A stretch of 64,000 nucleotides of DNA from Azospirillum formosense. Its GTDB lineage: Bacteria > Pseudomonadota > Alphaproteobacteria > Azospirillales > Azospirillaceae. A program made the position numbers and the translations under genes. The stretch is from positions 744,001 to 808,000 of the forward strand of contig NZ_CP159402.1 of the NCBI RefSeq assembly GCF_040500525.1, written 5' to 3'. The notes beneath the pieces were generated by a model that saw nothing but the letters and a program-made list of their open reading frames with translations, was not told the origin of the DNA and searched no databases. This document shows positions 37,868 through 40,264 of the stretch, in pieces. Numbering within the stretch: the stretch's first letter is position 1; each line of letters begins with the position of its first letter.

Positions 37868-38236
37868 TCACTTGCCCGCGGGCACTTTTCTGCGGGCGGG
37901 CTTTTTGGCGGCGGCGGTGCGGATCGCCGCCGCCAGGGCCGGGCGGGCCCAGAACAGAAGCTCGTCGGGATCGTCCAGCGCCGAGTCGGGCGGCGGGAAG
38001 TAGGGCAGCACCGTCGGCTTGTCGTCGAACGGCTTGAAGGGGCGCAGGCCCAGCGCCTCGTAGTCCGGGCGGTTGCCGTCGTCGGCCTTGAAATACAGGA
38101 TGTTGCGGGCGACCAGGGCGAACACGACGCCGTCGCAATAGACCGCGTAGCCACCGAACATGCGGCGGGCGGTGATGGCCCCCAGGGGCGTCAGCGACTC
38201 GCACAGGAAACGGACGAGTTCGCTGACCGTGGCCAT
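37868..38236 (-). CDS. TfoX N-terminal domain protein
   Basis: A 122-residue protein. TARRMFGGYAVYCDGVVFAL and YFKADDGNRPDYEALG match the TfoX_N family (competence regulator N-terminal domain, found alone in many alphaproteobacteria with unknown function). A Lys/Arg-rich tail follows. Start ATG 38236; ten bases after the sspB stop on the same strand, so these two are probably co-transcribed. Confidence 0.85.
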   Translation of the reverse strand: MATVSELVRFLCESLTPLGAITARRMFGGYAVYCDGVVFALVARNILYFKADDGNRPDYEALGLRPFKPFDDKPTVLPYFPPPDSALDDPDELLFWARPALAAAIRTAAAKKPARRKVPAGK

Positions 38237-38246
38237 GGCGGAAAAC

Positions 38247-38822
38247 TTATTTTTTGCGGAAGGCGTCGAGCGCCACGACCTCGCCGCGCTTCGGCTCCTC
38301 GCCGGAGCGGTCGGAGTCGGGCTTGCCGGCGTCGGCCCTGGCCGAATCGGGTTTGGCCGAGTCGGATTTGGCGAGCTTCGCGATGGACGGCTTCGTGCCG
38401 TCCGAAGCCTTCCGCTCGGGCGCCTCGCGTCCGGGGATGGTAGCGACGTCCGCCGATTCGGCGGGCTCCACCGGCTGGAACTGCAGGGCGAAATTCTCCG
38501 ACGGATCGGCGAAGGTGGTGATGGCGGCATAGGGAATGACCAGCCGCTCATGCACGTTGTTGAAGCTCAGCGTCACCTCGAAATGATCGTCGAGCGCCTC
38601 CAGCCCATAGAACTGGTACTGGATCACGATGGTCATTTCGTTGGGATACTGGGACGACAGATATTCTGGGATGTCGACGCCCGGGTAGCCCGTCCGGAAG
38701 GTCAGGTAGAAGTGATGATCGCCGGGGAGCCCGCGGTCCGTCACCTGGCGGAGCGCGTCACGGACGACACCGCGCAGGGCGGCCTCGACCATGCGGTCAT
38801 AACGCAACTGCTCTCTCGGCAT
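38247..38822 (-). CDS. sspB: SspB-family ClpXP adaptor
   Basis: A 191-residue alphaproteobacterial SspB. The folded substrate-binding domain (about 1-125: FYLTFRTGYPGVDIPEYLS, EMTIVIQYQFYGLEAL, HFEVTLSFNNVHERLVIPY) is followed by a long Ser/Lys/Asp-rich linker and the conserved ClpX-docking tail GEVVALDAFRKK. SspB tethers ssrA-tagged proteins to ClpXP for degradation. The gene encoding its substrate tag, ssrA, lies immediately upstream on the same strand. Confidence 0.94.
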   Translation of the reverse strand: MPREQLRYDRMVEAALRGVVRDALRQVTDRGLPGDHHFYLTFRTGYPGVDIPEYLSSQYPNEMTIVIQYQFYGLEALDDHFEVTLSFNNVHERLVIPYAAITTFADPSENFALQFQPVEPAESADVATIPGREAPERKASDGTKPSIAKLAKSDSAKPDSARADAGKPDSDRSGEEPKRGEVVALDAFRKK

Positions 38823-38854
38823 TCTTGGGCGGGTCCTTAACGCCAGACGGGTAA

Positions 38855-39192
38855 GTGTGGGCCTTCTGTTGCTAGGCGGCCCACGGCCCCACCCTCAGGT
38901 GCTACCCATCGGGGATTGATTTCGGTCAGTTACCGCTGTTAGGCGGCAACGGCGACCGGAGCAACGTTGTCGTTGGCAACTATTGCAATGGCCCGATAAC
39001 GGCGGAACCATGCCGGGCGAAGACCATGCCTTTACCACGCGTGTCGATCCTATTTCGCCCCCAACGAACCCGCTCCCCACGGCAACGCCCGGGAGACCGG
39101 TGGTTTGTTTGGTGGAGGCGCCGGGTACCGCCCCCGGGTCCACAACGCTTATTCCGCAAGGCGTTTATCGCCATAGTCGGCTGCTGCCGACG
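38855..39192 (-). ncRNA. ssrA: tmRNA, circularly permuted two-piece form
   Basis: On the minus strand an acceptor piece ends in CGCCTCCACCA (39120-39110) with an encoded CCA, a 47-base intervening segment follows (39109-39063), and the coding piece starts GGGGGCGAAATAGGATCGAC at 39062. The two ends form the acceptor stem GGGGGCG/CGCCTCC with the G3-U70 pair that alanyl-tRNA synthetase requires. The T-stem is CCGGG/CCCGG with loop GGCGGTA. The tag frame at 38977-38939 reads ANDNVAPVAVAA then TAA. The acceptor-first order is the alphaproteobacterial permuted arrangement. Outer ends are approximate; a 7-bp stem GTGGGCC/GGCCCAC closes at about 38855. Confidence 0.93.
38939..38977 (-). CDS. tmRNA proteolysis-tag reading frame
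   Basis: GCC-AAC-GAC-AAC followed by GTT GCT CCG GTC GCC GTT GCC GCC TAA encodes ANDNVAPVAVAA. With the Ala from charged tmRNA the appended peptide is AANDNVAPVAVAA. The hydrophobic VAVAA end is the ClpX signal, the AND-x part the SspB contact. Confidence 0.92.
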   Translation of the reverse strand, partial: ANDNVAPVAVAA

Positions 39193-39197
39193 GACCC

Positions 39198-39226
39198 AAT
39201 ATAGGCCCTTCGTCCGGAGATGGAAA
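39198..39226 (-). promoter_or_regulatory. Candidate promoter of ssrA
   Basis: Minus-strand TTTCCA (39226-39221), 17-base spacer, TATATT (39203-39198). This places the transcript start near 39191, just before the acceptor piece, which fits the expected gene layout. Confidence 0.6.
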
Positions 39227-39325
39227 GGGGGTGCCGCGGATTCTGACCGGAGGCCGCCGCGAAGGGGGTGACTGGCCGGGTCCGGGGACGTAGAGTGCCG
39301 CCCGAATTCAGTCCCCGGAGTACCC

Positions 39326-40264
39326 ATGCCGATCACGCCCGAGCAGCGCGCCGAGATCGACCGCCTGCGCGCCGTCACCGCCACCACCCGCCGCGCCACC
39401 GTTCCGGCCCTGGAGGAGATCCTCTACGAGCCGCTGGAGGTCCTGGACCACGGCTTCGTGCGCGTCGTCGACTACATGGGCGACGATTCGGCCGTCGTCC
39501 AGGCGGCGCGCGTGTCCTACGGCAAGGGCACCAAGAAGGTCACCGAGGACGCCGGCCTCATCAAGTATCTGATGCGCCATCGCCACTCGACCCCGTTCGA
39601 GATGTGCGAGATCAAGTTCCACGTCAAGCTGCCGATCTTCGTCGCCCGCCAGTGGATCCGTCACCGCACGGCGAACGTGAACGAATACTCCGCGCGCTAC
39701 TCCATCCTCGACCGTGAGTTCTACATCCCGACGCCCGAGAATCTGGGCGCCCAGGCCGTCGTCAACCGGCAGGGCCGCGGCGATGTCCTGCAGGGCGACG
39801 AGGCGGCGGCGGTGATGAAGCTGCTGCGCGACGATTCGGAGACGGTCTACGCCCACTACGAGGAGATGCTGAACCAGCGCGAGGACGGCACCACCATCGA
39901 GGAGGGCCGCCAGGGTCTGGCGCGTGAGCTGGCGCGCATGAACCTGACGCTGAATTACTACACCCAGTGGTACTGGAAGGTCGATCTCCACAATCTCCTG
40001 CATTTCCTCAGCCTGCGCGCCGACCCGCACGCCCAGTACGAGATCCGCGTCTACGCCGAGGCCATGCTGGACGTGGTGAAGCGCTGGGTCCCCGCCGTGT
40101 TCGACGCCTTCAGCGAGTACCGGCTGGGCGGCACCCACATGTCGAGGACCGGGCTGGAGGTCGTGAAGCGCCTGCTGTCCGGCGAGGCGGTGACCCAGGA
40201 GGCCAGCGGCCTGTCCAAGCGCGAGTGGCGGGAGCTGATGGACCAGCTCGGCCGCGCCGAGTAA
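39326..40264 (+). CDS. thyX: FAD-dependent thymidylate synthase
   Basis: A 312-residue flavoenzyme making dTMP from dUMP with methylene-THF and NADPH. The signature [15 protein letters not shown] fits RHRx7S, and [27 protein letters not shown] and [18 protein letters not shown] are family segments. CCGGAG lies a few bases before ATG 39326. It is divergent from ssrA. Confidence 0.96.

Follow-up and report, generated by a model that had tools for sequence, protein, structure and literature searches.

The 64,000-nt stretch of Azospirillum formosense DNA analysed here (the window) contains on its minus strand a tmRNA gene (ssrA), followed by the gene of the ClpXP adaptor SspB. The covariance model RF01849 matches over its full length (model positions 1-355) at 39230-38854 with 272.1 bits (E 4e-78; gathering score 50), and the permuted tmRNA model RF04321 matches on the same strand at 39172-38939 with 159.1 bits. 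ARAGORN independently reports a permuted tmRNA with the tag ANDNVAPVAVAA. Within the 6.1 Mb genome, the window's own RF01849 match is the only one at E 0.001 or better, and a chance match is not an issue at this locus. A split, permuted ssrA on the minus strand, carrying this very tag, had been read from the letters in the original prediction, which proposed a covariance model as a check; the full-length RF01849 match, ARAGORN and the sequence itself agree on it. The genome also encodes SmpB (PF01668, 191 bits; C1:1285798-1286226), about 0.5 Mb from ssrA.

The acceptor piece (39110-39191, minus strand) is delimited by the RF01849 alignment and the sequence; its 5' end at 39191 is the unmapped value of the original prediction, on which the length of around 82 nt depends. 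The piece closes with the acceptor strand CGCCTCC (39120-39114), an A (39113) and an encoded CCA (39112-39110), and is separated from the coding piece by a spacer of exactly 47 nt (39063-39109, minus strand; sequence and RF01849), which is expected to be removed from the precursor. The coding piece is around 209 nt long (38854-39062, minus strand; RF01849 ends at 38854, ARAGORN at 38848). Its 5' end GGGGGCG (39062-39056) pairs with CGCCTCC to form an acceptor stem of 7 bp, which is also present in the model alignment and in which G3-U70 is made up of G39060 opposite the U at 39116. The acceptor piece lies upstream of the coding piece, i.e., in the permuted order. The encoded CCA, the 47-nt spacer and G3-U70 had all been named beforehand and can be read directly from the sequence.

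The tag reading frame (38939-38977, minus strand; GCC AAC GAC AAC GTT GCT CCG GTC GCC GTT GCC GCC TAA), found in the sequence and by ARAGORN, occupies 38977-38942 and is followed by a TAA stop at 38941-38939, where the RF04321 match also ends; the encoded tag ends in the ClpX-type AA. The coding piece is concluded by a terminal hairpin GTGGGCC...GGCCCAC (38857-38884, minus strand), read from the sequence, which we take to be the pseudoknot 2 region; neither of its arms varies across an alignment of 17 Azospirillum-group loci. In the window, only TTACCC follows this hairpin, and a T tract is absent. Since the hairpin extends from 38884 to 38857 and RF01849 ends at 38854, the 3' end near 38890 that had been suggested for the coding piece is too early, whereas the suggested boundaries at 39110 and 39062 agree with the sequence. 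An outer helix of 8 bp (38910-38903 with 38853-38846), closing the RNA end over the gap, can be made out in the sequence and also appears when this sequence is folded alone (z -1.00), but was rejected because it is absent from the closely related loci L202 and L203.

The sspB gene (38247-38822, minus strand; 191 aa; PF04386, 145.9 bits, E 1.3e-42, cut-off 27) begins with an ATG 31 nt past the end of the RF01849 match, immediately downstream of ssrA and on the same strand, as originally described. The sequence AAGGA (38834-38838, minus strand), 11 nt before the ATG, is likely its ribosome-binding site; most Azospirillum-group loci in the alignment preserve this initiation region, the exceptions being L205 and L217. 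Residues 1-120 of the protein are 100% identical to records of Azospirillum brasilense and of other Azospirillum, which places the window in this group. Its solved relatives are 2nys, 2qas and 2qaz, presumably SspB of Agrobacterium (2nys) and of Caulobacter (2qas and 2qaz). The window protein is matched to 2nys over residues 2-128 and has in common with it the C-terminus VV.LDAFRKK, whereas the distance from the domain to this C-terminal match is around 40 residues in the window protein and around 14 in 2nys. The C-terminal tail of SspB is the part that binds ClpX; the putative tail of the window protein reads VVALDAFRKK, and 9 of the 13 SspB sequences listed terminate in a similar way.

Ten nt past the sspB stop, a gene for a protein with a TfoX N-terminal domain begins (37868-38236, minus strand; PF04993, 101.2 bits), which is possibly a third cistron. 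On the other side, ssrA is preceded by a putative promoter-like site (TTTCCA, 17 nt, TATATT; 39198-39226, minus strand) with 9 of 12 matches and a shuffle mean of 0.1. The next gene, thyX (39326-40264, plus strand; PF02511), is divergent from ssrA, with its ATG around 100 nt from the promoter-like site. A thymidylate synthase gene is also found in Sinorhizobium meliloti, around 2.2 kb upstream of ssrA on the opposite strand.

Concerning the gene order, 192 alphaproteobacterial genomes were surveyed, with RF01849 found in 184 (182 above the cut-off) and PF04386 in 177; for five genomes with two RF01849 matches, the best listed place alone was used. Both genes are present in 174 of the 192 genomes, and in 129 of these 174 sspB is situated on the same strand at most 700 nt downstream of ssrA; the median distance between the RNA end and the start of the SspB domain is 109 nt. 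Among the 45 genomes in which the two genes are not within 700 nt, sspB still follows ssrA on the same strand within 8 kb in 17, and in the remaining 28 the genes are found on different contigs (20) or apart on one contig (8). Taking one genome per family (118 families), the genes are adjacent in 79 of the 108 genomes that have both, and 10 of the 118 are without one or both. One genome (G068, locus L192) possesses a one-piece tmRNA according to ARAGORN, with the tag ADDNFEYAMAA, a sub-threshold RF01849 score of 25.4 bits and no PF04386 match.

A further set of named loci, fetched by SspB similarity, comprises the best 80 of 549 relatives listed and therefore leans to the window's own lineage. 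In this set ARAGORN finds a same-strand tmRNA within 700 nt in 45 of the 80 loci, or in 49 if four overlaps (L219, L250, L265 and L269) are counted, in which the ARAGORN boundary runs 7 to 14 nt into sspB; five more have a tmRNA 1.0-2.1 kb upstream of sspB. In the 26 loci without an ARAGORN match, Rfam found a tmRNA at the edge of the retrieved DNA in six (L237, L252, L258, L259, L263 and L272) and no tmRNA in 19. In Telmatospirillum siberiense (L274:2253-2459), RF01849 scores 26.2 bits (cut-off 50) directly before sspB; the end motif GGCAACAGAA is present there and ARAGORN reports no match, and this tmRNA is apparently divergent or incomplete. The 23 closest Azospirillum-type loci (among the best 80 of 549 relatives) all exhibit the adjacency of ssrA and sspB.

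As an outgroup, 39 genomes with a strong SspB match were used out of 109 genomes of other classes of the phylum, with 68 genomes with weak SspB matches and two without a match left out. All 39 score above the cut-off for the one-piece tmRNA model, and none does so for the beta two-piece model. In these 39 genomes ssrA and sspB were never found within 10 kb on one contig: In 14 genomes they share a contig, at a distance of 59 kb or more, and in 25 they are on separate contigs. The neighbourhood of ssrA and sspB is thus a widespread arrangement of the Alphaproteobacteria and not a novelty of this genome, and it is probably ancestral in the class. The comparison of gene order that had been recommended, run class-wide, does not bear out the tandem placement as a point of interest; because the pairing is common across the class, the locus constitutes a clear but fairly ordinary example of it.

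Concerning transcription, the region 38150-39350 contains no promoter-like site besides the one before ssrA, and a scan of the same region detected no terminator-like site. With a shuffle mean of only 1.0, this empty terminator scan is weak evidence, and the scan is blind to the terminal hairpin, whose loop is too long for it. The single promoter-like site ahead of ssrA, the lack of a terminator-like site and the gap of 31 nt favour shared transcription, and read-through from ssrA into sspB would be the likeliest arrangement as judged from the sequence. Of the 129 adjacent loci, 43 have promoter-like sites ahead of ssrA (7.4 in shuffles) and 7 have terminator-like sites around the gap (5.2 in shuffles); the controls of these site counts are plain single-base shuffles, and the counts are independent of the chosen sspB start. 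In 108 of the 129 adjacent loci the gap is scorable by a conserved tyrosine motif that sets the start (the other 21, with motif or start missing, were dropped), and in 34 of these 108 it is at most 40 nt, so that a separate promoter could scarcely fit between the two genes. We consider it quite probable that the locus consists of a standard permuted alphaproteobacterial ssrA and then its standard partner sspB, read through from the ssrA promoter.

This read-through might be restricted by the terminal hairpin, if the latter acted as a leaky terminator and thereby kept tmRNA well in excess of sspB mRNA. A TTTT run occurs within 18 nt of the RNA end in 36 of the 129 adjacent loci (8.8 expected). 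Five of the 23 closest named loci (among the best 80 of 549 relatives) have it too, namely L202, L203, L204, L209 and L217. The class-wide enrichment suggests partial termination after the tmRNA in many species, so that transcription in many relatives may for the most part stop short of sspB. In the window, however, no TTTT run follows the 3' end of the tmRNA, TTACCC alone stands after the hairpin, and the terminator scan of 38150-39350 found nothing. Furthermore, T runs are also enriched where sspB is not adjacent (19 of 47 loci as compared to 6.6 expected), and the T run is therefore not tuned to sspB. A leaky terminator at the terminal hairpin is unlikely on this evidence.

Quite unlikely, in our judgement, is a promoter of sspB's own inside the ssrA coding piece or the gap, in which case the gene order would be inherited and the control not shared. 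The last 60 nt of the RNA together with the gap contain promoter-like sites in 15 of the 129 adjacent loci, as compared to 7.9 in shuffles, such that some species may have an extra promoter, and the 45 of 174 genomes in which the genes are not within 700 nt indicate that the linkage is dispensable. At the locus studied, by contrast, the only promoter-like site precedes ssrA and the gap measures just 31 nt; among the Azospirillum-group loci, moreover, this gap varies in length and in sequence, whereas the preceding hairpin is fixed.

Concerning the tag, 171 of the 184 ssrA-matched genomes were counted (13 unread or doubtful ones were left out), and 147 of these 171 tags start with ANDN. Position 5 is occupied by 14 different residues among the 147 ANDN tags, with V in 17. 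Because this position varies class-wide, V5 was not accepted as a special departure from F or Y, and the tag, too, loses the interest that had been attached to it. Among the 23 closest named loci (within the best 80 of 549 relatives), ANDNVAPVAVAA is found in 11, ANDNVAQARLAA in 11 and ANDNFAEARLAA in one. The idea that this lineage alone has such a close tandem and such a tag, and that special regulation lies behind them, was an impression of the original prediction, to which the occurrence of the exact ANDNVAPVAVAA in one of 150 sampled loci (the window's own) might lend some colour, but with the same tag in those 11 close relatives, related tags elsewhere and an adjacency in 129 of 174 genomes that refutes it, this is extremely improbable.

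An ANDN start is found in 145 of the 163 genomes with SspB as compared to 2 of the 8 without, the latter belonging to few lineages, with two pairs sharing genus or family. Because of this kinship, and because one of the eight (G170) is a 92% complete draft from which the gene may simply be missing, the independent losses are fewer than eight. Fourteen of the tags stem from a pattern search able to keep ANDN starts only; if these are left out, an ANDN start is found in 132 of 150 genomes with SspB and in 1 of 7 lacking it. In five genomes without SspB (G039, G145, G083, G175 and G115), tags like AKSDYAEYALAA or ANESYALAA are found instead of ANDN starts. It is the first part of the tag that SspB holds. 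The co-occurrence of ANDN and SspB is in line with what is known of SspB, namely that it holds the tag (PMC3985003).

Two tandem NDN motifs within one tmRNA tag, e.g., ANDNNQFVAANDNSFVGEAIAA, were read in 13 of 14 loci examined, namely in the named records L228:2244, L230:1217, L238:1297, L242:968, L248:1991, L255:2185, L262:282, L270:857, L237:137, L252:141 and L259:121 and in L175 and L176. Four of the 11 named records are labelled Micavibrio, and the rest are unclassified Alphaproteobacteria. Such a tag looks as if it contained two SspB-binding motifs; among the literature matches listed for tmRNA tag peptides and Micavibrio, there was no report of tandem-NDN tags.

According to the read-through arrangement favoured here, RNA polymerase would start just upstream of the acceptor piece and read through both tmRNA pieces into sspB. 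As known for the family, RNases would then cut out the 47-nt spacer, so that an acceptor RNA and a coding RNA remain, held together by base pairing, and the alanine-charged RNA pair would tag stalled nascent chains with an alanine followed by ANDNVAPVAVAA. SspB, translated from the distal part of the same transcript, would bind the ANDN end of the tag and pass the tagged protein to ClpXP, as it does in relatives. If there is indeed one transcript, the cell would couple the amount of tagging to its capacity for delivery to ClpXP, which would be a simple design. A more general proposal is that throughout the class tmRNA and the reader of its tag are transcribed as one unit, where the final tmRNA hairpin, whether or not a T run accompanies it, sets the ratio of stable tmRNA to sspB mRNA, such that the capacities for tagging and for tag reading co-vary and loss of SspB is followed by decay of ANDN; this is conceivable, although we regard it as doubtful.

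Two-piece tmRNA was already described as known in the Alphaproteobacteria when the locus was first noted, and it is treated as established in PMC3985003 and PMC9004378. A conservation of both tmRNA-flanking genes in alphaproteobacteria was printed in 2007, according to PMC2245857, in which a functional link of small RNAs to their neighbours is called uncertain; the term sspB is absent from the main text of that paper. Lessner et al. 2007 are credited in PMC3985003 with the suggestion that SspB of Alphaproteobacteria may act on proteins tagged by tmRNA. An operon of ssrA and sspB is the subject of none of the literature matches listed, and the gene order may already be stated by Lessner et al. 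2007, Keiler et al. 2000 or Sharkady and Williams 2004. A useful by-product of the present analysis is the count itself, with same-strand neighbours in 129 of 174 alphaproteobacterial genomes that have both genes and in 0 of 39 of other classes.

The organization of the locus is that of S. meliloti, in which an annotated SspB-family gene follows, in the same order and on the same strand, DNA similar to the window's tmRNA, whereas the flanking genes differ: thyX, TfoX and COQ9 in the window, and DUF2853, DUF4169 and a ribbon-helix-helix gene in S. meliloti. The tmRNA pieces of S. meliloti measured 82 and 204 nt by Northern blot, as reported in PMC2245857, and are thus close in size to the pieces of around 82 and 209 nt predicted for the window. 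Equally to the Rfam RF01849 type (Caulobacter, Sinorhizobium), the tmRNA of the window is permuted, CCA-encoded and in two pieces, with a tag of the form ANDN...AA. There is no difference of substance to this type, the spacer length and the middle of the tag being species-specific, and the locus itself is one more well-formed example of a known arrangement.
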